Shown: positions 1 to 64,000 of the stretch, piece after piece
Layout of the letters: each line of letters starts with the position of its first letter
Numbering within the stretch: position 1 is the stretch's first letter
Assembly: GCA_946699065.1 (NCBI GenBank)
Contig: CAMPDV010000015.1
Coordinates: 1,426,001 to 1,490,000, forward strand
Reading direction: 5' to 3'
Source: Loxodes magnus
Lineage: Eukaryota > Ciliophora > Karyorelictea > Loxodida > Loxodidae
Length of the DNA stretch: 64,000 nucleotides
Notes under the pieces: generated by a model
What the model saw: only the letters and a program-made list of their open reading frames with translations
Database searches by the model: none
Told to the model about the DNA's origin: nothing
Program-made: the position numbers and the translations under genes

Positions 1-3000
1 TTTTTTATCACATTTTTTGCAACAAGTTTATTTTTCTTTTTTCGCACACTATTTGCATGTATATTTCTTGCATACTTCGCATTAACTTAACTAGCATTAG
101 TTACATATGTTTTTTTCGCATACTTAGCAAGTTTTAAAAGGACAGTTAATACAGACGAATTTATTACAAACTTAACACGGCTGGTCCTCACATTTATTGC
201 ATATTTAGTTTTAACATGATTGGCATTATTTTCTGTGGCACTCAGAGCAAACATCTTTGTAGCAATTACTGCATTTCTTATCTGAACATTTTGAGCATAT
301 TAACTTATTGCAATTTTAACATTTTACGGATTAACATTTTTTACAAACTGGTAATCAACATTACTAGCATTCGTAAGATGTGCATTGCGAACAAAGTATT
401 TCTTCGCAGATTTAACATTTCTTAGTACAAGTTAGGCAAATTAAAATTTCGCAAAAGAAGCATTTATTTATTTCACAATTTTCACAAGCATAACAGTTGC
501 ATTTTTAGCATTTATTTTATGTAAAAATACAAATTTTACAAATTATTTTTAGGCAAGTTACGCATTTTTATTTAGAGCAATCACTGCAAATTAACCTTTC
601 GCATATTTGACATTCACTATTCAAACATGAGTTACATATATCACTCATACATGTCTAACATTTTGATATAGTGCAGTCTCCACATACAAATGATTAGCAT
701 TTCTAACATTAAAGTTTAATACAATTTGTACAAACTAATTATTTACATTTCCTACACATTTTTACGCATTCTTAACAATTTTGAGAGCCACATCTTTTAC
801 AAGATAAAGATTCACAAGATACCTAATTCTTTTTATTTCATTACTTTCTATTTCTTTAGTTTTTAAGATTGATTTACTCTTAACAAGTATCACAGTTTTA
901 TTCCAAGCATTCTAAACACTTTTATTTATAACAACCTTTACATCACTTTGTACAACTTTAACAACATTTTTTATCACATTTTTTGCAACAAGTTTATTTT
1001 TCTTTTTTCGCACACTATTTGCAAGTATATTTTTTGCATACTTCACATTAACTTAACTAGCATTAGTTACATATGTTTTTTTCGCATACTTAGCAAGTTT
1101 TAAAAGGACAGTTAATACAGACGAATTTATTACAAACTTAACACGGCTGGTCCTCACATTTATTGCATATTTAGTTTTAACATGATTGGCATTATTTTCT
1201 GTGGCACTCAGAGCAAACATCTTTGTAGCAATTACTGCATTTCTTATCTGAACATTTTGAGCATATTAACTTATTGCAATTTTAACATTTTACGGATTAA
1301 CATTTTTTACAAACTGGTAATCAACATTACTAGCATTCGTAAGATGTGCATTGCGAACAAAGTATTTCTTCGCAGATTTAACATTTCTTAGTACAAGTTA
1401 GGCAAATTAAAATTTCGCAAAAGAAGCATTTATTTATTTCACAATTTTCACAAGCATAACAGTTGCATTTTTAGCATTTATTTTATGTAAAAATACAAAT
1501 TTTACAAATTATTTTTAGGCAAGTTACGCATTTTTATTTAGAGCAATCACTGCAAATTAACCTTTCGCATATTTGACATTCACTATTCAAACATGAGTTA
1601 CATATATCACTCATACATGTCTAACATTTTGATATAGTGCAGTCTCCACATACAAATGATTAGCATTTCTAACATTAAAGTTTAATACAATTTGTACAAA
1701 CTAATTATTTACATTTCCTACACATTTTTACGCATTCTTAACAATTTTGAGAGCCACATCTTTTACAAGATAAAGATTCACAAGATACCTAATTCTTTTT
1801 ATTTCATTACTTTCTATTTCTTTAGTTTTTAAGATTGATTTACTCTTAACAAGTATCACAGTTTTATTCCAAGCATTCTAAACACTTTTATTTATAACAA
1901 CCTTTACATCACTTTGTACAACTTTAACAACATTTTTTATCACATTTTTTGCAACAAGTTTATTTTTCTTTTTTCGCACACTATTTGCAAGTATATTTTT
2001 TGCATACTTCACATTAACTTAATTAGCATTTCTTACATATGTTTTTTTCGCATACTTAGCAAGTTTTAAAAGGACAGTTAATACAGACGAATTTATTACA
2101 AACTTAACACGGCTGGTCCTCACATTTATTGCATATTTAGTTTTAACATGATTGGCATTATTTTCTGTGGCACTCAGAGCAAACATCTTTGTAGCAATTA
2201 CTGCATTTCTTATCTGAACATTTTGAGCATATTAACTTATTGCAATTTTAACATTTTACGGATTAACATTTTTTACAAACTGGTAATCAACATTACTAGC
2301 ATTCGTAAGATGTGCATTGCGAACAAAGTATTTCTTCGCAGATTTAACATTTCTTAGTACAAGTTAGGCAAATTAAAATTTCGCAAAAGAAGCATTTATT
2401 TATTTCACAATTTTCACAAGCATAACAGTTGCATTTTTAGCATTTATTTTATGTAAAAATACAAATTTTACAAATTATTTTTAGGCAAGTTACGCATTTT
2501 TATTTAGAGCAATCACTGCAAATTAACCTTTCGCATATTTGACATTCACTATTCAAACATGAGTTACATATATCACTCATACATGTCTAACATTTTGATA
2601 TAGTGCAGTCTCCACATACAAATGATTAGCATTATTTACATTAAAACTTTATACATTTTGTACAGCGAGTCTTCTAACACTCTTTACATTTTTTTACACA
2701 TTCTAAACAATTTTGAGTTCCACATTTATAACATTTTATCGTAGTACATGAGACACATCCTTTTTAACTATTCTTAATTTCTTTATTTATTTTTTTATCT
2801 CATATTTTATTAAAGCAAGTTTTACATCTTTATTGCTTACATTCTAAGCATTTTCATTTTTTACAACTTTTACATTAAGATGAGCAATTTTAGCATCTCT
2901 ATTCATTGCATTTTTAGCATTAATTTAATTTTGAATTAAGTTAACACATCTTACATATTTTTCTATCGCATTTTTAACAGTCTTATTTTATGCATTCTAT

Positions 3001-3915
3001 ACAAGTTTTTTTAGAGCATTTAGAGCATGTATCTTAAAGGCATTCATTACATAATTTTTTAAAGCATTTTTAGCATTTATTTTGAGAGCAATCACTGCAA
3101 ATTAACCTTTCGCATATTTGACATTCACTATTCAAACATGAGTTACATATATCACTCATACATGTCTAACATTTTGATATAGTGCAGTCTCCACATACAA
3201 ATGATTTGCATTTCTTGCAATAAAATTTTATACATTTTTTACAAACTGATTTTTTGCATTCCTTACATATTCATATACAATCTTAACAGATTTGAGAGGC
3301 ACATTTTTTACAAGATAAAGCTTCACAAGAAGCACAATCCTTTTTATTTCATCACTGTCAGTTTTTTTATTTTTTTCCTCATATTTATTAAGAGCAATCA
3401 TCACATTTTTATTTCACACATTCTAAACACTTTTATTTATAACAACCTTTACATCACTTTGTACAACTTTAACAACATTTTTTATCACATTTTTTGCAAC
3501 AAGTTTATTTTTCTTTTTTCGCACACTATTTGCAAGTATATTTTTTGCATACTTCACATTAACTTAACTAGCATTTCTTACATATGTTTTTTTCGCATAC
3601 TTAGCAAGTTTTAAAAGGACAGTTAATACAGACGAATTTATTACAAACTTAACACGGCTGGTCCTCACATTTATTGCATATTTAGTTTTAACATGATTGG
3701 CATTATTTTCTGTGGCACTCAGAGCAAACATCTTTGTAGCAATTACTGCATTTCTTATCTGAACATTTTGAGCATATTAACTTATTGCAATTTTAACATT
3801 TTACGGATTAACATTTTTTACAAACTGGTAATCAACATTACTAGCATTCGTAAGATGTGCATTGCGAACAAAGTATTTCTTCGCAGATTTAACATTTCTT
3901 AGTACAAGTTAGGCA
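1..3915. repeat. 966-bp tandem repeat units inside the octad gene
   Basis: Units begin at 1, 967, 1933 and 3478. The first two are complete and differ at only a few bases (for example around 56-58 and 102-108). The third matches to about 2633, is then replaced by diverged octads, and regains a block at ~3086-3208 equal to ~575-697 of unit 1. The fourth matches from ~3418 to 3915. 966 bp is 322 codons (40 octads plus two residues) and the third-to-fourth offset, 1545 bp, is also a multiple of three, so the frame is never broken. Confidence 0.95.
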
Positions 3916-5643
3916 TATCTTTCCATCACATTTAAAGCATTTAGCAGTTTTGCAATTTTAGCATATAATCTTTTAGCAACTTTTGCATTAGGTTTCTAAT
4001 TTGTTTTTGCATGTTTTTATTTCGCAGTTTAAACATTTAATTTTTTTACAATTTTCTTTACAGTTTTAGTCGCATTTTTGACATTTTTTTATGCAATTTT
4101 TGCAAATATATTCTTCATTAAAATCAATATTTTCGCTTAAATAGATATTTTCATTTATAATTTCTCTAATTTAATTTGTTTTAAAGCTACAATCTTAGCA
4201 AGTTGTGATTTAGCAAATTTTACATTATTTAGATTTTTAATTTTTACATATATTTTTATTGCAAAAATTACATTTTTTAATACATTATTCACATGTTAGT
4301 TCGCTACATTTTTGACACTTCGAAAACTAACAACTCTCACATCTTCCTTTTTCACACTATGAGCAGATATTTTCTGTGCATTTTTCACATATACTAGCTT
4401 AACAATTTTAGCATTTAGACATTGAACATTTTTTACAAAAGGTACTTTTACATTTTTCGCATTTGAAAAAAGAACATTTCGAACAAATGTTTTATTTGCA
4501 AGTTTTGCACTTGATTATACAGTCACTGCACACATTACTAGAACATTTATTACAGCTGATGGATCTATTAAATTTATACTTATCAATACAACAACTCTCA
4601 CATTATCATGAGAAAAAGCATTTGCATATCTTCTTGATTCAAGTATTTGCTTCAGGGCTTATATTTCCTGATTCTAAACAATTTTTGCATTATTATAATG
4701 GATGACTTTATCGATCATTTTAGCAAGTGGAACAAATTGCTACGCATTACTTGCAAACTTAACTTGAGCAAAATTTGCAAAGAGTAATGCAATTTATACA
4801 GTTTTTAGTTTAACAATGCTAACATTATATAATGCAACCTTTGCATACAATATTTTAGCAACTTTCACACTCTTTCTCTTTACATTTCTCACAAATTTAA
4901 CTTTCACAGATTTAGCAGTCATAAATTTGGCACTTCTTGCATAACGGATTTTCACAATTACTGCATTTTTTTTTCAAACAATTTTAGCAAAAGAAATCAT
5001 TGCATGAATTGCATATTAAATTACATCTTATACAGTAGTAACTGGAGCATGACTTACATTGTGAAATGCAGAGTTTACAAATTTTTTAATTGCATGCTTG
5101 GCATTAAAAGTCCCATTTCTATTATGGAAGATTTGATTGACATATCTAGCAGTCAGTTATTTCTTCGAATGAGACTTCTTTATTTTTTTTCAAAAATTTC
5201 TTATTTTATAAAAATTCAGCTATATATTAGCTATCAACCTAATTTTTCTACCGACCATTTTAGAATTAGTATTTTTGTAATTTTAAAGATTAATCTTGAG
5301 CTAATATTGATTATTATTTCTAATTTTTATTTAAAATTTTTTTATTCTTATTTTCTTGATATTCTTATCTATTCATCTATTTTTTTTGAATTTTTATTTC
5401 TAATTCTTCTTGAAGCTTTATTTGTCCAAACTAACTCTTATTATTTTATTATTTCCTTTTTTAACTTTCAAACAAATTTTATTGCCAAAAATTCTCATTT
5501 TTTACAATTTATTGGCTAAAATCTTCCATAGAACTGAGTTTTATTTCGATTAAGTTGCAATCCAAAGGCTTGCTTATGTTTCCTTCTTAAAATTTTTATC
5601 TATCCGTTTATGTTTCATCTTCCTTACTGTAAGATTCATCCAT
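1..5643 (-). CDS. Giant CxxC-octad repeat protein (3' end outside window)
   Basis: One uninterrupted minus-strand frame of 1881 codons (TAA/TAG=Gln, TGA=Trp) runs from an ATG at 5643 off the left edge. The first ~175 residues are hydrophilic and Gln/Lys/Glu-rich, probably coiled coil. At about residues 165-200 there is a Cys cluster opening CQIC, with a CxxC-W-CxxC-CxxC pattern like a zinc finger. From there to the window edge the chain is an array of the eight-residue unit C-x2-C-x4, roughly 200 units, so about 400 cysteines. Each unit is 24 bp, which makes gca/aca triplets on the plus strand alternate at 9 and 15 bases. In-frame TGA (tca at 355-357, repeated at 1321, 2287 and 3832) is read as Trp inside an octad. 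A later Met at 5529 is an alternative start, but residues between the two Mets look coding. The function is unknown. The paired cysteines suggest Zn binding or disulfide cross-linking (inference). The second octad protein at 42.2 kb ends in an ADP-ribosyltransferase domain; whether this one does cannot be seen. Confidence 0.85.
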
Positions 5644-22185: not shown

Positions 22186-25134
22186 ATGATATTGATTGAA
22201 AATCAATTTAAGGTTAAGCTTCAGAAATGAATATAAAATATCGTTATCCAATTTGGATAAAATTATATATTTAAACTAATCAAATTTAAAAATAATTATA
22301 TAATAAGCTATGATAAACTTGCCAGATTCAAGTGTTTACAGCATTGGAGACTAAAATAATTATCATAGGGATAATTAAATTCTAAAAGTCAAAAATTAGA
22401 TCATGACTTAAGATCTGAGCAACAACTCTGGAATTGCTAAGTTAAAGATGCGGATTTAGAATGTCTAAAGCTTTGAAAATCCTAGAAAGGATTATAAAAT
22501 TATTAGAGTACTTAGTAATAAGAAATATTACGGGGAATTTACTAAAAAGTAAGGCTGGCATTGAACAGTGAAAATGAGTAGGTAGCGCTTTTAGAAATAA
22601 GATTCTTTTAAATCTAACAAATGGAAACAAATTTGCTATTTTTTTCCAAATGAAGAGAGTCTAATGTATATCAATCCAACTTCGTTAGAATATTTGATAT
22701 CAAGAAAAAAAATTCAGAGACATTACTTATAGAAACTGAATATCTAGAGAGAAAAAGTCTAGAAGACTTCATTTCTAATAAGATAGGATTTACAAGCAAC
22801 TGAATAGATAATTTCATTTCAAAAATAATAGATTCACTAGCTTGGCTTCAAAGCAATTAATGACACTTACTGAATCTTAAGCCTAATAAAATATTTTTAG
22901 ATTCCTTTGGAAATCCAAAAATTAATCTACAAGTCTTAACATAAGTTTCATCATATACACGTAGAAATCCATAAAATAGTCTATAATCAATATTTGAACA
23001 AATGTTGGTGAATTAAATTAGTATCTTTAAGTAAAGTCATCCTATAAAGCAAGACGTTTATTCGTTTGGCTTAATTTTACTCTTTATTTTAATTTCCAAG
23101 TAATAAATTCAATAATGAACATGATATGATAGAAATGCCCTGCAATCATTATTAAAGAAAGCTTGCACTGATGCAGAGCATTTAATACATTTAATTTCCT
23201 CATTACTAGAAAACAATTAGCTTAAAAGACCAGATTGGGTCACATTAAAGAAAGTAGATCTTAAAAGAATGGATTAAGTTGAGAAAAATATAAAATAGCT
23301 TTAATAAAAGAAAACACAGTAAGGCTATTCTTAACTTTTAAATTAATAGGAAAATATTAAAAAATCACAATATACATAAAAAGAAATACCATACTTAAAA
23401 CTAGATGAAGCAGGAATTAACACTTAGTAGCAAAAAGCGATTGAAGACATTAGATAAAAACTGCCGTTATAACCCGGATCTTAAGACTATATCCTCCTTA
23501 AAAATATGGAATTGTAAATTATTTATATTGGATATGCAAATTAACTCAGTGCTTTTGATGGTTTAGGAAGACTCTTAAATGTCAAAAGTTAATATTACTA
23601 CGAAGGTTATTTCGCCAATGGATAAAAATAAGGAGAAGGTAGAATTTTAAACTTAGTAGAGTTAGATGGCTATGATAGCTGATTTGAAAATGATAAGTAA
23701 GTAACTTAAACTTTAATATACTCTAATACTTATAAGTTTATAAATGGAAAAGTAAGCAAAATTAATATGAAAATTGAAATTCCTTACCTAAATTGCGATG
23801 ACAAGTACTTAAGCCTGATGATCTCAGGAGTATAAGATTTCCTTTTCGCTGATCCTAACAAATCGTAACACTTAATATCTTAAATCTAAATTAACAACGG
23901 AGTTATATACGTCGGTTAAATAACAGGCTGTTTAGTTCCTCACGGATATGGTAGAATATTGGATCCATAAAATAAAATGTACTACGAAGGATGCTTTACC
24001 AATGGATTAAAACATGGAAGAGGAACTGTTTTACAGTTAGATGATATGCAAGCTTATTCAGGAGAGTTTGACTAAGATAAGCTTATAAAATAAACCTAGC
24101 ATATTCTTATCGATAACTTAAGAAAAAATATTCTCAAACTCTACGATAAAGAAATGATAAACTCTTTTCTCTTCTCTTCCAGTGAGTCTTCGAAATAGTA
24201 TGCATCATATTCATAATAAGAGAAGTTGCAAGTTGATATTGAACTTTATATAATCAAAAATCTAAAGAACAAGAGTAGAGTAGAAATAGAAGTGGAATGC
24301 CATAAGGGAGAAAGGAACTAATTTCTATGGGAATAAATTCTTATTCAGATAATCAAAATAAACTCTTCCTTAAAATATAAAAAAGCTCTTGTTTGATACT
24401 TTGACTATTAAACTAAATAATTAGAACTAAAAGGCTTCATTTCAAGCATCACCAAAGACTCTGTTCTTGTTCATAATCCTAAGTAAATTCTGTTCCTTAT
24501 CATACAGTAGCAAGGGAAATAAGTCAACGAAGAAGTCTAAGATATTTAGCTTTGAAACTAAGAAAGCGAACAATCGTAAGAAAAAACAGAGAAGACAGTA
24601 GAGTTTGTACTTGGGTAAATATAAAAGTTCTATGCCTTATACCAAATGCATTTACACCAAAACCTAGATAACAATATAGAATTCGTCAAGTAAATGATCT
24701 ATCATACCTCCTTTCGAGCTAGAAATCAAAGTAAAAAAATTCAACTAGTAAAGAGTGCGAAAACATTGATGTTTGATTTCTAGAAGCATTACAAGGATAG
24801 TTTCGACATATTGAAGATCTACGTGAATAAGCTGACTTAGTTTCTATAAACGAAATAAATAAATTTAAAAAATAATGTAACTCCTTAGGTTTTATTAGGC
24901 TAATTAAGTATTCTAAAGTTAGATCATGAAGATTGTTGTATAAATGCATTTTTGAAAACTTTGATTTCTGAAGATCAGAATGAGAACTACTTGAAGATGA
25001 GTAAACTTTTCGAGACTTTTAGTATATTTTCAGATTAAGAAAGTACGATGGATGCCCTTTAGAGTGCGAAAGTTTAAGGAGGTTAGGAAGAGATGTTAGA
25101 AGAGAGTCACATGTAGGAAAAGATTTATTAGTGA
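22186..25134 (+). CDS. Kinase-like (probable pseudokinase) - MORN repeat fusion protein
   Basis: A single frame runs from ATG 22186 to TGA 25132-25134 (~982 aa). Residues ~95-370 have the order of a protein kinase fold: an N-lobe around VRLALNSENEQVALLEI, a hinge LLIETEYLERKSLEDFI, a catalytic-loop equivalent HLLNLKPNKIFLDSFGNPKI, and DVYSFGLILLFIL as subdomain IX. The ATP-binding Lys is absent (VALLEI), the HRD Asp is Asn, and the DFG position reads NLQ, so it is probably catalytically dead. From ~residue 440 MORN repeats follow (YYYEGYFANGQKQGEGRIL; MYYEGCFTNGLKHGRGTVL), then a helical C-terminus. In-frame TGA codons read as Trp (DSWFEND; IQLWNQE). MORN proteins usually bind membranes or the cytoskeleton. 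Upstream short exons (GTAAGT donors near 22065 and 22128) are possible, so the start is uncertain. Confidence 0.8.
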
Positions 25135-29677: not shown

Positions 29678-31507
29678 AACTTTTATTCTAAACAGGGTAA
29701 ATGCTTTAAAATAATAGTTTACTTAAGAGTTTATAATGAATCTTAGTTAAAGTTTCTCACTAATAAATCTTTTCCTACATGTGACTCTCTTCTAACATCT
29801 CTTCTTAACCTCCTTAAACTTTCGCACTCTAAAGGACATCCATCGTACTTTCTTAATCTGAAAATATACTAAAAGTCTCGAAAAGTTTACTCATCTTCAA
29901 GTAGTTCTCGTTTTGATCTTCAGAAATCAAAGTTTTCAAAAATGCGTTTATACAACAATCTTCATGATCTAACTTTAGAATACTTAATTAGCCTAATAAA
30001 ACCTAAGGAGTTACATTATTTTTTAAATTTATTTATTTCGTTTATAGAAACTAAGTCAGCTTATTCACGTAGATCTTCAATATGTCGAAACTATCCTTGT
30101 AATGCTTCTAGAAATTAAACATCAATGTTTTCGCACTCTTTACTAGTTGAATTTTTTTACTTTGATTTCTAGCTCGAAAGGAGGTATGATAGATCATTTA
30201 CTTGACGAATTCTATATTGTTATCTAGGTTTTGATGTAAATGCATTTGGTATAAGGCATAGAACTTTTATATTTACCCAAGTACAAACTCTACTGTCTTC
30301 TCTGTTTTTTCTTACGATTGTTCGCTTTCTTAGTTTCAAAGCTAAATATCTTAGACTTCTTCGTTGACTTATTTCCCTTGCTACTGTATGATAAGGAACA
30401 GAATTTACTTAGGATTATGAACAAGAACAGAGTCTTTGGTGATGCTTGAAATGAAGCCTTTTAGTTCTAATTATTTAGTTTAATAGTCAAAGTATCAAAC
30501 AAGAGCTTTTTTATATTTTAAGGAAGAGTTTATTTTGATTATCTGAATAAGAATTTATTCCCATAGAAATTAGTTCCTTTCTCCCTTATGGCATTCCACT
30601 TCTATTTCTACTCTACTCTTGTTCTTTAGATTTTTGATTATATAAAGTTCAATATCAACTTGCAACTTCTCTTATTATGAATATGATGCATACTATTTCG
30701 AAGACTCACTGGAAGAGAAGAGAAAAGAGTTTATCATTTCTTTATCGTAGAGTTTGAGAATATTTTTTCTTAAGTTATCGATAAGAATATGCTAGGTTTA
30801 TTTTATAAGCTTATCTTAGTCAAACTCTCCTGAATAAGCTTGCATATCATCTAACTGTAAAACAGTTCCTCTTCCATGTTTTAATCCATTGGTAAAGCAT
30901 CCTTCGTAGTAAATTTTATTTTATGGATCCAATATTCTACCATATCCGTGAGGAACTAAACAGCCTGTTATTTAACCGACGTATATAACTCCGTTGTTAA
31001 TTTAGATTTAAGATATTAAGTGTTACGATTTGTTAGGATCAGCGAAAAGGAAATCTTATACTCCTGAGATCATCAGGCTTAAGTACTTGTCATCGCAATT
31101 TAGGTAAGGAATTTCAATTTTCATATGAATTTTGCTTACTTTTCCATTTATAAACTTATAAGTATTAGAGTATATTAAAGTTTAAGTTACTTACTTATCA
31201 TTTTCAAATCAGCTATCATAGCCATCTAACTCTACTAAGTTTAAAATTCTACCTTCTCCTTATTTTTATCCATTGGCGAAATAACCTTCGTAGTAATATT
31301 AACTTTTGACATTTAAGAGTCTTCCTAAACCATCAAAAGCACCGAGTTAATTTGCATATCCAATATAAATAATTTACAATTCCATATTTTTAAGGAGGAT
31401 ATAGTCTTAAGATCCGGGTTATAACGGTAGTTTTTATCTAATGTCTTCAATCGCTTTTTGCTACTAAGTGTTAATTCCTGCTTCATCTAGTTTTAAGTAT
31501 GGTATTT
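29678..31507 (-). repeat. Right arm of 1830-bp inverted repeat
   Basis: Inverted copy of 23384-25213. The breakpoints are sharp: beyond 31507 and below 29678 there is no further similarity to the other arm. The spacer between arms is 4464 bp. Confidence 0.97.
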
Positions 31508-42178: not shown

Positions 42179-44788
42179 ATGGGCTTCCCTCTTGAAATTT
42201 TCACTAGCTAAGTGGATCTTTAGTTCTTCTGCTTTGTTTGTTGAGATGTTCTTGAAAACGCGGTTAGATGCTTGAGTTGTTTGAAATAGTTTTGCTGAAG
42301 TTGTGTTGAGTAGTAAATATTAGCGAAAAAGAGTTGTCCATGATGTAAGTAAGAGATTGAAGTGGGATCTTCAGAGAACAATTAACTGATCATGAGTCTA
42401 TAAGCTAAGTGCATGAACTTGCGGTGTAATTAGATAATTCCTTTATTTTAGCTTAAGGAACACTTAGAAAATGATTAAGCTAATACAATAAAGGAGCCTT
42501 AATTCTAAGAAGTGTAAAAACTATATCTCCAATAGTAAAATCAGGCTGAGAATGAGGGATATGAGAAATATCTATAATAAGGTAACTTTCTACAGAACGA
42601 AGTTATTCAGAGTTAATCAATAAACGAAACCATTGAAAATTGCTAGATCTGCTAATCTAAAATAAATCAAAACGAAGAGAAATACAGAATATGCTTTATA
42701 TGCTAACGGGTTGTATGTGATAATTGCTAAACTAAAAAATGCATGAATTGCAAAAAAGACGTTTGCCAAGAATGTTGCCAAAATTTTTGCACTAACTGTT
42801 AGAAGCCTATATGCTACATGTGCAAGTCTGTTAACTGTTAAAGCTGTCAAAATCCAATATGCAACAAATGTAACACAAAAATATGCAATAACTGTTTTAG
42901 TCCTATCTGTAAATCTTGCTAGTGGCAACGATGTGTAAGTTGCTATAATTATATCTGCTTTACTTGTGAGAAAGTATGGTGCAAAACTTGCAAAAACGTG
43001 GTATGCAAAATGTGCTAGAAAATAAAAGAGACAAATTTATAAGATCCCTAATGCTTGTCCTGCTCAACCAACTAGTTCTGTATATGCTAGAAGACTAATA
43101 GAAACAAATTTAGGACAAAATAGTGTGTAAACTGCAAAACCAATTTCTGCTATAATTGCCATCTATAGCAATGCATTATGTGTACTAATTCTATCTGCTT
43201 CAAATGCTAGAAAAAAAAATGTCTGAGATGCTAAAAGTTTTTATGCAACGACTGTACATTTAATTAATGCGGGGGTTGTAATAAGCAAATCTGCCGTAAG
43301 TGCTGAACAAAAAATTGCACTGGATGCAAAAGAAAATTATGCAAAGATTGTAAGATTAAACGATGCAATAAATGTAACTTAATTTATTGCTTTATTTGCG
43401 AATTAAATAGATGCTATTAATGCTAGAAAAGCTACTGCTAGAGTTGTCCTTTAGAAGAGTGCAAAACATGTTTAAAAAAATTTTGCTTTAAATGTTGCAG
43501 TTAATGTCCCAAATGCTCACTCGTTTAATGCTTGGAATGCCAAGAATAAGTTTGTGATATATATAACCAGAAATGTGAGAATTGCACTATACAAAATTGC
43601 ATTTCTTGCGTTAAATAGTTCTGTAGTATTTGCTATAAAAGTAACATTTGTGATATATGTTAACTTAAGTAATGCAAAACTTGCTCTTTCACAAACTGCT
43701 AAAAATGCTCTAAATAAGCTTGCAAAAATTGTATAGAAAGATGTTCTGGCTGCAATCATAAATTCTGCCCAAGTTGCATTTCGTTAGATTGCTAGAATTG
43801 CTAGAAACTTTGTGATAAATGCACATCTACCTGTTAACATTGCTAAATAGCAATTTGCATAAAATGCACCAAAAAATAATGCATTAACTGTAATTTCTAA
43901 ACTTGTGTTGATTGTGACTATTAATCTTGCTAAGTAGACAAAATTCCATAAGCTTTCGATAATGCTGATTAAAGCTTTTATATGATAGAATACAGAAAAT
44001 CTAAGAAAAGCTATTCTACAAGCGAAATTAGAGAATAACTAGAGAAAATAAGCTGATATGCCAGTATGACTTTAGCTGAAGCTTGAGACGAATGTATGAA
44101 TTTCTTTTAAGATGAGAAATGAAACATTAAAGATGATTTAGCCTTAGCAAAACATTGCTGTGCTCGATTATGAACAATGGGTGGTTATACTCAACTCGCA
44201 TGAACGAGTACTCGTATTTTAATTAGCTTGATAAAGTTCTAGAGAGGATAATTAACTAACAAATGAAATTATTCTTAAGAGTACTGCATAGATATTTTAT
44301 AAACTTTAATTCCGTGAATTAGAATGCTTAATAACTTCATAATAGAAGAAAGTCAAAAAAAGAATAAGGAAGCATTCACTGTTTGGAGAGCTATAGATGA
44401 TGTATGCTTATAAGAACTAGACGAGTAAAAAATATATAGGAAAGGATTCAGAATCCCACATTATTTGGCCACTTCAATAAATAAATAAGTAGCAATGGCT
44501 AGATTGTAATATACTCCTGAAGGTGAAACGGGAACTTTGCTAGAAATTGAAATTCCATAAGAATGCTTACATGCTGTTTACGTTGATTAGCTTTCAGCTT
44601 ATGGTGATAGTGAATTCAATAATAACGGTGAAAAAGAGGTACTTATAGTTCCTTTTTCTGTTTTTTGAATACATGATATTAGTTATGTTTATTTTACAGT
44701 GAGCTTTAGATAAATCCTTACTAAAGTTATAAAAATGAAATTAGCTCAAAATAATAGACTTCACGAATTTTGGAGAGCCTTTATCTGA
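42179..44788 (+). CDS. RING - TRAF-type zinc finger - CxxC-octad array - ADP-ribosyltransferase protein
   Basis: One frame starts at ATG 42179. Residues ~16-60 are a RING: CFVC, CLSC, FCWSC and CPWC. A TRAF-like zinc finger follows (KCMNLRCNQIIPLFQLKEHL, ~88-107). From residue ~155 (NCQICQS) to ~588 the chain is a CxxCxxxx array, for example CNKCNTKICNNCFSPI. After a helical linker comes a mono-ADP-ribosyltransferase fold of the R-S-E class: Arg737 in VWRAI, Ser766 in YLATSINK, and the E-x-E pair Glu818/Glu820 in EKEVLIVPF, so catalysis of NAD-dependent ADP-ribosylation is plausible. In-frame TGA codons read as Trp, including one inside CPWC and one in FCWSC. The 3' end is uncertain: TGA 44666-44668 directly follows the last conserved strand, TGA 44786-44788 is the next in frame, and an 18-nt intron at 44682-44699 is possible. 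The combination suggests a large ubiquitin-ligase-like scaffold with an ADP-ribosylating end (inference). Confidence 0.87.
42641..43940 (+). repeat. 24-bp-period CxxCxxxx codon array
   Basis: Cys codons (tgc/tgt) alternate at 9- and 15-base spacing through about 1.3 kb, giving roughly 50 octads with a few irregular steps. Unlike the array at 1-5 kb there is no long-period near-identical repeat, so individual octads here are old and diverged. Confidence 0.93.
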
Positions 44789-53360: not shown

Positions 53361-55820
53361 TCAAAAATCAGTTTGTAGAGACATACTTTTAAATGTAGAG
53401 AAGCTTTACTTCTTTTATCTTAATTTGTTCTCATCTTAAGATTTCATTTTGCTCCATTGTATTTATCTCTTTCTAGTTTCTTACTCTTTACGGAAGTCTA
53501 GTTCGTTGAGAGATTACTTTCTACTCAGGTTTTGAAATTGTTTTTTTAAGAAATGAAAGTTGTTTTGCATCTGCTTTAATTTTTAAATTGAGCTTAAGAT
53601 TTCTTAAGGTTTAGAAGGCTTTGGTAGAACTTCGTTCATTCCAGCTTGAAGGCAACGGTTGATGTCTTGTTGATTAGTATACGCCGTATAACCTAAAATT
53701 GGACCCATATACATCATTTTTCTTATTCTTCTAGTTGCTTCCCATCCATCCATTATAGGCATCTCACAATCCATTATAATAACTTCAAACTATGTACAGC
53801 AATTTTTTTTGTGCAGCTTTCAAATTTATTTCAACGCTTCTGTTCCATCTCTTGCCTCTCTGATTGTAAAATCACTTAAAATTTCTGAGAGAATACAACG
53901 AATGAACTCAGTATCATCTACTAGCAATATTTAAGGACATTAGCACTTCTTTGAATCGGCTTATTTTCTAAGAGAAGGATATTCTAAAAACGGAGCTTAG
54001 TTTAAGTTAATTTCTATTTTTGATTTAAAAGATCGAAATTAATCGTCTTCGATAATCTTAGGTAGTTCTTAAAAGGAACGTATATTGCTTTCTTTGCGCT
54101 ATGCTATTACATAAAATTTTACAGAAGTACCTACCCCAACTTTCGATTTCAGCCTTATGCTTTTTTGGCCTAATTCTGCTGCTAATTTCTAAGAAAGAAA
54201 AAGACCTAAGCAATTTCCTTGTGCTTAGTCTATATTGAAATTATGCATCTTGACTAGCCCAAATAAGTCAAATGTGTATTCTAACTTATCACTTTCAATT
54301 CCACATCCAGAGTCAATGATTTTAAAATTAATGAGAAAATTCTCGAGTTCTCCTATGAGATTTTGTTCTATTAGTGTGTCACTTTTCATCTTAGAAAGAG
54401 TTGCATAGATCTTTACAAAGCCTTTCTTAGTAAACTTAAAAGCATTAGATAATAAATTGAGGAAAACTCCTTTAATTCTTTTTTCATCTGCGTATATAAT
54501 TTTTGGAATTAGTGGGTTGATAATAATTTCTATTTGAATATCCTTCTTTTCAGCTATTTCTTCAAAAGGAATAAGAGCTTCATAAAGTAACTAGTCAAGG
54601 TTAAATTTACATGGTTAAAGCTTGAAGACTTTTGATTGAATATCACTGACATCTCTTAGTTAATCACAGAGACTTAGCAATTTATTACTCTCCTGCTATA
54701 TTTTGATCAAGTTACAGTCAAGATTCTAAATGAATTTTTAGTTTTGATCTCCATTAGATTTGCTCAAACTATTTTAGATAGAACTGACAATACTATACAC
54801 TACAACGATAGGATGACGCACTTCATGACTAAAAGATCTAATAAACAAGGTTCTATACCTTTCTTCTCATAACTATCTTTCTTATTAAAGGGCCTAAGTA
54901 ATGTTACATAACTCCAAAGCTACTGCTATACTACTTTTATATAAAATGCGCTTGCAACTTACTTAAAATTTATTTATTTTTTTCCTTATCCTAAACTGGC
55001 AGACTCCACAATTAGTAATTTACTCTCTTTAGTCTTTTAAAACTAGAAGTGCTTACTCGTATAAGTTTTGAGTCTATAGATTGTTAAGCTCTATTTAATG
55101 ATTTGTAAACTTGCAGTTAGTAAATGTTTCTTTAATTTGATCCACATCGAAAAATTCTGACGCTACTTAGTTTATGTATAAAACCTAGCAGTCATTCATT
55201 ATAACAGTAGCTGAATTAGCAAAATCTAGCTACTTAGAATAGTCCTAGTCTAGTATTCTTTAGATCTCAGATAAAATTTTATACTTATAGGATGTAAAAT
55301 GCTATAGCGTAGCCTTGTTGTTATAATACTGCATAGCTATGAAAAAGGCTATCAGTAGAAACACTTTAGTGTCTATTTCTTTGTAAATCTATTTTCTATA
55401 GAACTGAATTGCTACTAAGCAGAGCTAGATACCATTTGCAAAATCAGCTTTAAAAATGGTTGGTTCAAAGAAGAGAGTTAAACTTTGGCTAGTTGGAAGA
55501 GAGATTAGAATATGGATAATTTAGTTAGAGTAGATTTCACTTCATAAGGTAGAAAATAAATAAGCTACTCAAATGAAAAATAGTTCGAAGTGCTATTAAT
55601 ATTGGCTTTTATAAATTCCTAGCATAACCTTTGCAATCAGAACGAAAAGAAACAATAAAGTAGTTTTAGTCCATATGTCTTATATTTTATACTAATTGTC
55701 TCATAAAATATATAGGCTATGGAAGAAGACAACTGCCAGCTAATTATTCATTAGGGTTTTCGTACATCTAAGAGCGAAGAAGGCAAGATTTTTTTCTAAC
55801 TCCTTAAATACTAAAGACAT
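53361..55820 (-). CDS. Hybrid sensor histidine kinase with receiver domain (819 aa)
   Basis: A single exon runs from ATG 55818-55820 to TGA 53361-53363. The N-terminal ~180 residues contain several hydrophobic segments (TTLLFLFVLIAKVMLG; KVFLLIAFFIAMQ), so it is membrane-anchored. A PAS-like region follows (~195-300, VIMNDCQVLYINQ). The kinase core has the H-box FSHEVRHPI with His332, an N-box (FLNLLSNAFKF), G1 (DSGCG) and a G2 (GNCLGLFL). The C-terminal receiver has the acidic pair in LLVDDTEF, the phospho-acceptor Asp684 in IIMDCEMPIMDG, and Lys in VLPKPSKP. All catalytic motifs are intact, so it should autophosphorylate and pass phosphate to its own receiver. Four in-frame TGA codons read as Trp, three near the membrane segments (for example LYILWDN) and one in QLWEERYR before the H-box. 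The tail after the receiver is basic and Gln-rich. Confidence 0.93.
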
Positions 55821-60791: not shown

Positions 60792-61911
60792 TTTTTTATT
60801 ATTCAAACAATTAATCAAAAAAATGATTTAAAGAATAGCAAAATCATTATTACTTAGATCTTGCCTTTTATACTTGAGAAAAAGAATATAAAAGCTTAAC
60901 TTCAAATTACCATTAGAATTGGATCTTCTAGTTACTTTAAATCAAGAAATACCATGCAGATTTACTCCCATAAGCTGAAATCAAATTTAAAGCTTACTCT
61001 AAACTTTACTAAAAGAGAGCGCTTGTTTAGATTATGCTCTTCTCTGATAGCTCCTAATCCTTTTCTTAGTTAATTAAATGCTTACAGCTTCTAAAATATT
61101 AGGAATTTGAAAAATAATAAGGTAGTTTAATTTTGTAAGAGGTTTGAGTTAAATATCAGGGATAAAGCTGTTACCTGTAAAAGCTAGAATAACTATCCTA
61201 ATAGCTTTAGTTAAATAACCCTCCTATGAAGCATAATCTTCTTAGCGAGTTAAATCTAAATTTTGGTTTTATCATGTCTGAATATCTGTAACTATATGGA
61301 ATAGATTAATAATGAAATAGATATAAGAAAATATCGCTGATTTCTTACAAAGGAGTACACCAATTTGGTAATTTCGAAAAGCATCTACCAAGTTAATAAA
61401 CTACTAGATTATTTTAGCCTTTCTTAAATAATCTTGAGCTTCTTAGCTTTGAATATCTATTTATATGCACTTAAGCATTATACCAGCACCTTATTACCTT
61501 AAAGTTAAAAAACTATAGCAACTTCTAAAAGAGTAAAGCAGATTAGAAGTGAAAGAAGGCAGATAAGCCTTAGTCAATTATACAATTATTCAACTGAACT
61601 GAAATACTTTAAAGCTATATATCATAAATTCTCTTCAATTAACAGAATTTTTTCTCTCTTACTCATAATTATTTTCACTAAGTAAATCAGCAAAAATTTA
61701 TTCTTAAGTGCTAAAGCTGAGCAGATAGTATGAAAGGATCAATAGTAGGACTAAGAGTGAAGGAAGAGATTAAATAGAGATAAAGAATGTAGAAGGCAAA
61801 AAGAGGAATAAAGAAAATAGAAAATTCGTTAAAAACAAAGAGAAAAAGAAGCCATATTTAAATAAATACCTTAGGATTTATATTCAAGCAAAGTCTTTTA
61901 TTTTGTTATAA

Positions 61912-64000
61912 ATGGCTGAAAATTCTTTAGCTCCGGGATCTATAATCGAAGGAAAAACATTGGTCATATCCAGACTTCCAGATACATTTATTGGACACGA
62001 ATTAAAAAACGCCATTTCAGAAATTGCGATTCCTTCAAGTATGAATATTATAATTCCGAAATTAAATCGGAGAATAAGAATTAAAAGGGCCATAAGTGCT
62101 TAAGATTAATAATCTTCAAATTAATAGATATTTAATATCATATAACTGTGCAGCAACGAATAAGGAGATATTGACTTCGAAAAATTAGCCCAATTAGACA
62201 TCAAATAATTTAAACCTCAGTTTTAGTTGGAAGATAAATAATATGAATATAACCTTAAATAATATAAACTTGCCTTTTTAAATTTTAGCTCTGAGGAGGA
62301 TGCTCATAAGGTTTACTTAACTTTAATCACAAACTAGGGTTAGATTTTAGAAAAGAACAACATCAGCAATTCAATCACTACTTATAAGCTTAAATCAAAA
62401 GAATTCTTTTAGTAGTTGACTACGATTTTTGTTAAGAGCATTTCAAAAGCTACAACAGAGAAGAGCTTCTATGATTATTTTAACATAGGACCTATTTTCA
62501 CTTTAAAGTTTTCCAAAGATTAAGAAGGAAGACCTAGAGGATACGGATTTGTCACTTATTACAGTAAGGAACATGCGGAAAATGCTTTAAGTAGCTTACA
62601 TAAAACTGATCTTGATGGCAGTGTCATTGAAGTAGTAAAGTTCATTAATGTTTAAGAAAGAGAAAATTAAGAAAACTAAAAGGTTCAAGTGAATAACATT
62701 TACATCAAAAATATACCAGCAAATTGGGATTATTAATAATTAAATGCTCTTTTTGGATTGTTTGGCCCAATTAAATCTTCAGCGATAAACATAGACTCTC
62801 ACGAAAGAAAATCAGCATTTGTTTGCTACGAAAATCCAGAAGATACAGAAGTCGCATGGTCTTTCATGCATGAGCAATAGCTTAAAAGAGATTTCGAACC
62901 TTTGAAAATTAGTTAAGCTCTTAAAAAGTTCGAAAGAAAGCAAATAATTGGGTTGTAATTTGAAGAAATGAAAGAAAATCTTAGAAAAGAGCAAGAAGGA
63001 AAGAATTTATATGTTTGGGGACTAAGCGAAAATGTAACAGACTAAAACCTAATGGAAATCTTCTAGTAATTTGGAAAAATTCTAAGCGCCAAAGTTATGC
63101 AAGAGACTAATATCAAGATAAACTTGGAAGGAGTTGAGGAATCTAAAAAGTCTAAAGGATATGGATTTATATGTTTCGAGACAAAAGAGGCGGCCGGAGA
63201 GGCATTGGAAAAAATGAATAATACTACAATAAATGACAGAAAAATTAATATTTATATTGCTAAAAGAAGAGATAAAAACTCTAAACCAAAAAAATCCAAT
63301 CCTTTTAGCTAATAATAATACCTTTAAAATCATATGATGAACACGCATAAAGTTTCTCCTATGATGGCTATGGGTCGAGGATATAATCCTTTTCCATTCT
63401 AAAATCCCTTATAATTTCACAATTTTTAAGGAAGAGGAATGTAAAAAATGCCATTTTAAGCCCGTGGAGGATTTTAAAATTTCATTGGAATGCCATAAAT
63501 GATGCCAAATATGGGATTTAATCCTCAAATGAGAGGAATGCCTCCATAGATGTTTGGAAAAATGCCTCCTTAGTTCAAGGGACCTATGCCTCCTGCTAGA
63601 GGTATGTAACAAAGAATGCCAATGTAGCCACCTATGGGTCCTCCAATGGGTCCTATGGGGGCTCCAATGGGGGCTCCAATGGGGGCTCCAATGGGGGCTC
63701 CAATGGGGGCTCCAATGGGTCCTCCAATGGGTCCTTCCATGGGTCCTTCCATGGGTCCTTCCATGGGTCCTTCCATGGGACCTTCCATGGGTCCTCCAAT
63801 GAGACCAATGCAATAACAACCATATAATTTACAAGGACCTATGGGACCTCAAATGGGTTTTCCAGGTCAATAATAAATGGGAGGATAGGGTCCAATAGTT
63901 TAAAATCCTATGTATCAGTCTATGCATATGCCTCCATAGCAAATTCAACAATAACGTCCCCCTCAGCAGAATCCACAAGTAGCATAGCAACTGTAACAAA
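61912..64000 (+). CDS. Poly(A)-binding protein, cytoplasmic type (3' end outside window)
   Basis: A continuous frame runs from ATG 61912 to the window edge (696 codons), with many TAA/TAG read as Gln and no TGA. Four RRM domains lie in order: RRM1 ~15-130 (divergent, KTLVISRLP), RRM2 ~170-245 ([18 protein letters not shown]), RRM3 ~261-335 ([16 protein letters not shown]) and RRM4 ~365-465 ([18 protein letters not shown]). A Met/Pro/Gly/Gln-rich linker follows, including MGAP x5 and MGPS x5 tetrapeptides (~575-630). This is the layout of cytoplasmic PABP, which coats mRNA poly(A) tails and promotes translation; the expected C-terminal MLLE domain would lie beyond 64000. The first ATG is right before the first RRM, as in the family. 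RRM1 carries a weak RNP match, so RRM2-4 probably do most binding (inference). Confidence 0.93.
63646..63795 (+). repeat. 12-bp tandem repeats in the PABP linker
   Basis: Five copies of ATGGGGGCTCCA (MGAP) at about 63652-63711 and five of ATGGGTCCTTCC (MGPS) at about 63727-63790, nearly perfect at DNA level. They are G/C-rich against the local AT background and create standard-code open frames in other phases. Confidence 0.95.

Follow-up and report, generated by a model that had tools for sequence, protein, structure and literature searches.

The window analysed here is a stretch of 64,000 nucleotides of the Loxodes magnus genome (C15:1426001-1490000, from an assembly of 705.73 Mb in 7,843 contigs). 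PMC11441545 gives the size of the macronuclear assembly as 706 Mbp and describes gene prediction under table 27, where TGA can be read as Trp or as a stop. A gene on the forward strand of the window joins a RING, a CxxC array and an ADP-ribosyltransferase domain (abbreviated ART in the following) in one frame, and a second, giant array-ART gene runs out of the window at its left edge. The features of both genes are as follows.

42179..44788, forward strand: gene for RING, degenerate TRAF-like finger, CxxC array and ART; 869 aa with table 27.
42230..42346, forward strand: C8 (C4C4) RING, residues 18-56; PF13923 above cut-off and family alignment.
42410..42478, forward strand: TRAF-like second finger, residues 78-100 (C78, C83, H95, Gln100); alignment of the Loxodes family.
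42641..43933, forward strand: CxxC array, residues 155-585, with 50 CxxC and the unit polar-CxxC-x3-hydrophobic-CxxC-x3.
42641..42727, forward strand: cap at the array start, C-x2-C-x13-C-x2-C-x4-C-x2-C, read from the sequence; the giant gene has a similar cap.
43118..43501, forward strand: longest strict run; its 16 octads alternate perfectly (hydrophobic before CxxC in 0/8 versus 8/8).
43964..44785, forward strand: ADP-ribosyltransferase domain, residues 596-869; Pfam, family alignment and alignment with Vis.
44387..44389, forward strand: Arg737, invariant in 15/15 aligned ART domains.
44468..44476, forward strand: A764-T765-S766, an STS-like motif with Ala first; the Thr is invariant in 15/15.
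44630..44638, forward strand: E818-K-E820, the ExE motif; both Glu are invariant in 15/15.
1..5643, reverse strand: first 74% of the giant array-ART gene, which continues to about C15:1424003, outside the window.

The single frame described in an earlier note on this DNA was borne out: from its ATG, table 27 gives one frame of 869 residues across 42179-44788, and a self-trained codon HMM, whose training was seeded without the array (a training that had fixed on the array was replaced), placed 42245-44641 in one coding segment. The stop, TGA at 44786-44788, follows the residues WRAFI and thus lies at the same place as in paralogues (WRALI, WKAYV, WKAFV), and 12 internal TGA codons are read as Trp. 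Near 44672-44700, a few residues are missing from paralogues, and they may correspond to a short intron. Furthermore, the joined RING and ART ends recur in a full-length paralogue, L009, which has the same order and is 44% identical over residues 1-869. That two or three neighbouring genes are read through by chance or by a permissive code would draw on the near absence of stops in table 27, which makes open frames cheap, and on the TGA sites of the front part, where both the window gene and L009 have Trp at only 1/3 sites in the RING-TRAF part and at 0/4 in the array. In the ART, however, 8/9 TGA sites are Trp in both genes, and at four of these one of the two genes has TGG. Together with the end-to-end match of L009 in one frame, the single coding segment, and the array running in frame into an ART in eight genes (window gene, L009, L010, L011, L013, L014, L028 and the giant gene), this makes a read-through very improbable.

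When the whole protein was compared with Pfam, 0 families were matched at E <= 1. The first 112 residues scanned alone matched PF13923 over residues 18-56 (E 1e-6, 28.9 bits versus a cut-off of 27), and the RING had rightly been described as having all its Cys pairs: with the spacing C-x2-C-x9-C-x2-C-x4-C-x2-C-x10-C-x2-C, all eight zinc-ligand places are Cys. The TRAF-like finger proposed behind it is recognisable only through a family alignment that comprises L009 and eight RING-TRAF proteins of Loxodes, and the proposal holds through that alignment but not for the last ligand. In the window gene, Gln100 stands in for the fourth ligand, a Cys in 7/8 fetched relatives, which leaves the TRAF-type C-C-H-C ligand set incomplete; the last Cys is also lost in L009, and Pfam gave no zf-TRAF match in the window gene. 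RING-TRAF modules starting with MG[FY] are numerous in the same genome (122 matches at E <= 1, of which eight were fetched and aligned), and in 9/10 family members the central C-x2-C-x4-C-x2-C of the RING has the polar-then-aromatic phase that is also found in the array.

The array contains 50 CxxC (49 without overlap), with a spacing of exactly 8 in 39/49 cases, and its region holds 104 Cys, whereas only 3 His and 4 Gly occur in its 431 residues. CxxCx4CxxC windows were counted 39 times, versus a mean of 1.28 and a maximum of 7 in 2,000 composition-keeping shuffles. The count of about 50 C-x2-C-x4 octads in the earlier note therefore stands, but the octad is not the true unit: the residue before CxxC alternates between polar and hydrophobic, and the repeat unit is therefore 16 residues, not 8. 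This alternation was present in 6/6 arrays tested (window gene, L009, L010, L013, L014 and giant gene; L011 was omitted as a near-duplicate of L010), with the observed value reached in 0, 21, 0, 0, 2 and 0 of 2,000 permutations, respectively. Six positions were tested, and only the residue before CxxC was low in all six arrays. In the other long run of the window array, which comprises 14 octads, the residue before CxxC is hydrophobic in 0.57 versus 1.0 of alternate octads, a less clean alternation than in the strict run of 16.

The cysteines of the array are under strong purifying selection. Between paralogues, Cys were retained at 100/100 (L010/L011), 75/78 (L013/L014) and 99/108 places (window gene/L009), with 15, 32 and 42 switches between TGC and TGT at the retained Cys, respectively. 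Array omega was 0.24 for L010/L011, a close pair with a dS of 0.28, and 0.14 for L013/L014 and 0.15 for window gene/L009, the last two with saturated synonymous sites. Once the shared Cys were removed, array omega climbed to 0.41, 0.33 and 0.43 for the same pairs in that order, and thus the spacers are constrained much less than the Cys. These results bear on the reading of the array as a functionless product of a low-complexity DNA repeat, for which one could point to 966-bp copies in the giant gene that are 99.7% identical and to viral contigs that show CxxC octads as simple DNA repeats: the octad DNA pattern was found at at least 120 loci of the collection viral_contigs, with an open frame (table 11) in 60/120 listed, and the best 40 of 120 look like low-complexity repeats. 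The window array, however, is not a DNA repeat, as no TRF row covers it and its adjacent octads share 0.318 of non-Cys bases versus 0.368 expected from column composition; moreover, Cys stay while their codons drift, and omega is well below 1. We consequently give this reading almost no weight.

No Pfam family was matched by the whole array at E <= 10. Eight phase-matched segments, cut from the two arrays of the window, were also scanned against Pfam at the same threshold. Here, zf-B_box matched 7/8 segments (best E 5e-5), although some segments are near-copies and these are therefore not seven independent matches, and the ANCHR-like B-box matched 6/8 (best E 3e-4; for the first segment, the only one with bits given, 17.4 bits versus a cut-off of 27). 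In the spacer-shuffled control, each of the two families matched 1/8 segments, at E 5 and 6.2. At the level of sequence, the array segments thus bear some resemblance to B-box fingers, and the likeness is lost once the spacers are shuffled. A PDB profile search with the array returned 21 chains, versus 12 in its shuffled control, the best being protein kinase C delta (E 0.0035), a chain that we take to be a C1 finger. Matches to Slp4, to piggyBac and to C1 (protein kinase C) were obtained with the array but not with the control. FYVE fingers appeared from E 0.1 for the array and from E 0.13 after shuffling; since they recur, they support the cysteine lattice only, and a FYVE kinship of the array was downgraded accordingly. 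Metallothionein and DnaJ were also considered for comparison and discounted because of spacing and glycine, Gly being outside the eight commonest residues at all four spacer places of the window array, which shows no DnaJ-type CxxCxGxG. According to PMC4999995, fingers of the RING and FYVE type and their relatives bind two zinc ions through half-sites that interleave along the chain. Because of this interleaving, the B-box likeness and the phase shared with the RING, we infer that the array is a series of cross-brace-type zinc half-sites.

On its own, the window ART matched PF01129 at E 0.0075 with 16.1 bits, below the cut-off of 22.3. Among the 15 aligned members (of 20 domains; the near-duplicates L018, L019, L023, L024 and L026 were omitted), 12/15 matched PF01129 at E <= 1 (window gene included, best 9e-10) and 6/15 matched PF03496 (best 2.3e-8), and 18/18 genomic ART places above the PF01129 cut-off include the giant gene and L028, not the window gene. 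By sequence, the assignment made in the earlier note thus holds within the family. Its R-S-E residues R737, S766, E818 and E820 were found at exactly these numbers; Ser766, however, comes third in the STS-like motif, which was placed by alignment with Vis (PDB 4xzj, E 0.17), and Ala764 comes first. The window gene thus has the Arg and the ExE of R-S-E ADP-ribosyltransferases and lacks the STS with Ser first. Ala occupies the first place in 14/15 members, including the window gene, with Ser in L017. In known R-S-E enzymes, the first Ser of STS contacts NAD, and with Ala at this place, catalysis may be altered or lost. This observation can be read in favor of a pseudo-enzyme scaffold, in which the ART would be a non-catalytic binding module and the protein an E3 or adaptor. 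We regard this as improbable, as Arg and both Glu of ExE are invariant in 15/15 members and the domain is under purifying selection (omega 0.17 for window gene/L009, with synonymous sites saturated, and 0.22 for L010/L011). Because the invariant residues are maintained under purifying selection, the ART domain is more likely to be catalytically active than inactive, despite Ala764.

The earlier note also suspected a gene family that includes the giant octad gene and asked whether ART domains recur; in the genome, the family was confirmed and ART domains do recur. A search with the whole window protein gave 59 matches and one with an ART paralogue 68 ART matches, some of which are pieces of one gene; for large families, such counts are lower bounds. 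On contig C15, both searches combined gave 13 ART places between 1.128 and 1.643 Mb. The giant gene likewise has a terminal ART, located 1.3 kb beyond the window edge and reached in frame through the adjoining bases, and the gene totals 2,555 residues, 505 Cys and 240 CxxC (overlaps counted). Architectures, as well as membrane stretches, were judged by eye from 13 fetched loci and fall into the following types.

RING-TRAF-array-ART: window gene and L009, with L012 in pieces.
Q-rich N-terminus, array and ART with no visible RING: L010, L011, L013 and L014.
Cys motif of extracellular appearance, some five membrane stretches, roughly a dozen CxxC and ART: L028.
Membrane type as in L028, with an array remnant only, and ART: L017 and L021.
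Membrane type as in L028, without array, and ART: L015, L016, L022, L025 and L027.

The ART is the constant part of the family and the N-terminal part varies. Besides L009, a RING was not seen in the other 12 loci printed, for which a limited upstream stretch was available, and the fragmented third RING-array-ART copy, L012, may reflect introns or decay. Few of the ART genes read possess a RING. A link between ubiquitylation and ADP-ribosylation is therefore not general in the family, of which the ART is the shared element, and the connection to ubiquitin may be incidental. In the membrane relatives, a GPS-like motif was seen by eye; neither Pfam nor the PDB profile supported it.

From the 68 matches, 20 ART domains and that of the giant gene were aligned. 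In the unrooted tree of these 21 domains, the six ARTs of the RING-array and Q-rich-array types split from the other 15 (99/98), among which the ART of the giant gene forms a long branch; the architecture labels of L018, L019, L020, L023, L024 and L026 were borrowed from near relatives. Arrays thus stand on both sides of the tree, a distribution consistent with an array of old origin and with repeated lengthening and loss. It should be noted that array-only searches of the genome, which gave 14 and 9 matches, are insensitive, as the window array missed the giant gene; octad genes without an ART may thus be missed, and the picture leans to ART-bearing genes.

Beyond Loxodes, tblastn searches of viral_contigs (queries: ART domain, whole protein, ART alignment) and of genome_contigs (query: ART alignment) revealed no relative. 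These are collections of viruses and prokaryotes, and the result therefore has no bearing on other ciliates. Among the open-licence papers listed, none concerned such an array or a RING-ART fusion as judged by title and abstract start, and the main text of PMC11441545 contains no word beginning with 'zinc', 'cysteine' or 'ribosyl'. What appears to be new is the zinc-finger-like repeat attached to known enzymes, each end domain being already known.

Taken together, we lean slightly towards a cytosolic mono-ADP-ribosyltransferase carried on a serial zinc-finger rod, a member of a family expanded in Loxodes, as a reading with somewhat better than even prospects. Zinc would be bound by the CxxC half-sites, which may act in pairs or in the cross-braced manner of B-box, FYVE and RING fingers, where half-site i joins i+2. 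With some 25 zinc ions, the array would form a rigid rod or scaffold, and this rod would bind or space a target. The ART would then transfer ADP-ribose from NAD+ to an arginine (or other) side chain of this target. In the window gene, an E2 recruited by the RING could lead to ubiquitylation of the target, with or without its ADP-ribose, or of the protein itself. The N-terminus would decide the place and trigger of ART action. That it can be a RING, a Q-rich stretch, a giant array or a receptor-like membrane part suggests different sensors acting through a single effector; defence or stress signalling would be the likeliest setting, although this is a guess. Since the RING end and the absence of a signal sequence, none being seen by eye in the window gene, suggest the cytosol, the array is predicted to be cytosolic and metal-bound, with a rod linked by disulfides as the less likely form. 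On the same two grounds, we rejected the idea that the window gene encodes a Cys-rich surface protein that is secreted like the Giardia VSPs.

The main rival to the zinc-rod enzyme is a metal or redox switch, in which the many zinc-thiolate sites would do the sensing and loss of zinc or oxidation of the rod would release or silence the ART (and the RING), as in an NAD-consuming stress switch. The numbers of Cys, 104 for the array region of the window gene and 505 for the giant gene, go far beyond the needs of a spacer, the array length ranges from none to 240 CxxC ahead of the same ART, and the looser hold on spacers than on Cys speaks a little for such a sensor. However, a 16-residue pattern and some B-box likeness persist in the spacers, as expected of a fold and not of a metal sponge, and several ART relatives show no array. 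Overall, we consider the switch rather unlikely, though somewhat ahead of the other alternatives to the zinc-rod enzyme. At its boldest, the zinc-rod enzyme can be extended to a new protein repeat, a serial rod of cross-brace half-sites with up to 240 CxxC, derived from a B-box/RING-type core and serving as a length-variable, metal- or redox-tuned arm of the ART, which, where a RING is present, would write ubiquitin and ADP-ribose from one polypeptide and would, in Loxodes, be the intracellular part of a set of effectors (receptor-like, soluble and giant) akin to an innate-defence gene family; this extension is speculative, and we would not expect it to hold in full.

To our knowledge, signalling and defence in karyorelict ciliates are almost unstudied. 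If true, our findings would provide a repeat type that is unmatched as a whole by any Pfam model, in proteins with up to 505 cysteines, as well as a RING and an ART of the R-S-E class in one eukaryotic chain, through which ubiquitin/ADP-ribose coupling could be tested directly in a system other than PARPs and Deltex. Furthermore, a karyorelict ciliate would possess a large ART repertoire with exchangeable front ends.

With the R-S-E ADP-ribosyltransferases (PF01129 ART, PF03496 ADPrib_exo_Tox and Vis, 4xzj), the window ART has the order of Arg, TS/TT and ExE in common; unlike them, it has Ala at the first STS place and sits behind a CxxC array. A RING followed by a TRAF-like finger is the E3 layout of NRDP1/RNF41, and a C8 RING with a second finger is shared with this kind, the Loxodes module starting with MG[FY]; in contrast to it, the C-terminus of the window gene consists of array and ART, and the second finger is without its last Cys. 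Known couplings of ubiquitin and ADP-ribose chemistry, as in Deltex/PARP and SidE-type systems, involve a different ART class or separate polypeptides. No Deltex domain was found among the Pfam matches of the window gene. That Deltex E3 ligases with PARPs (ADPr-Ub) and SidE-type enzymes couple the two chemistries is described in PMC12687431.

With the cross-brace fingers of B-box, FYVE and RING type, the array itself has in common a C-x2-C-x4-C-x2-C core whose second knuckle is preceded by a hydrophobic residue; it differs from them in its scarcity of His (3 in the 431 residues of the window array) and in consisting of tens to hundreds of serial half-sites instead of a single domain. CxxC at 8-residue steps is known from the DnaJ cysteine-rich domain, and a high Cys content from metallothioneins. 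The array has the 8-residue steps of the former without the CxxCxGxG glycines, and its spacing is regular CxxC and not CC or CxC as in the latter; in its length and 16-residue phase, it is unlike both.

The module of RING and TRAF-like finger with an MG[FY] start was matched 122 times genome-wide at E <= 1. The C-termini of the proteins that carry it differ, for example among eight relatives fetched from the same genome (L150-L157), of which two look MORN-like there by eye.

Own-genome searches gave thirteen ADP-ribosyltransferase (ART) places, that of the window included, within positions 1127960-1643173 of the contig (C15). At eight ART-bearing loci of the genome (L015, L016, L017, L021, L022, L025, L027 and L028), about five membrane stretches precede the ART by eye, together with an outside Cys motif that resembles a GPS site on inspection. 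Pfam GPS was without a match in all six of these loci that were scanned, and a PDB search with a profile returned no match.

Features of the window
1-5190 (-): tandem copies in the giant array gene, spaced 966 bp
23209-25122 (+): MORN-repeat gene, copy 1
29769-31487 (-): MORN-repeat gene, copy 2
44672-44700 (+): extra residues in the window ART, from comparison with paralogues
53367-54812 (-): receiver domain and histidine-kinase ATPase piece (Pfam)
61753-63999 (+): three RRM stretches in an RNA-binding gene

The window ART exceeds its paralogues by a few residues after the ExE strand, and this extra stretch may be a short intron or an insertion. The giant array gene differs from the window's other array in its tandem DNA copies, which we infer to stem from recent unequal crossing-over; 1-966 and 967-1932 share 99.7% DNA identity. 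The two MORN-repeat copies are inverted relative to each other, with about 4.6 kb between them, and share 99.4% identity over 1,719 bp.

The response-regulator receiver domain (E 6e-23) and the adjoining histidine-kinase ATPase piece (E 5.7e-5, slightly under the cut-off) perhaps constitute one hybrid histidine kinase. The RNA-binding gene, in which a 12-bp tandem repeat encodes Met-Gly-Pro/Ala/Ser units, resembles poly(A)-binding protein by eye.
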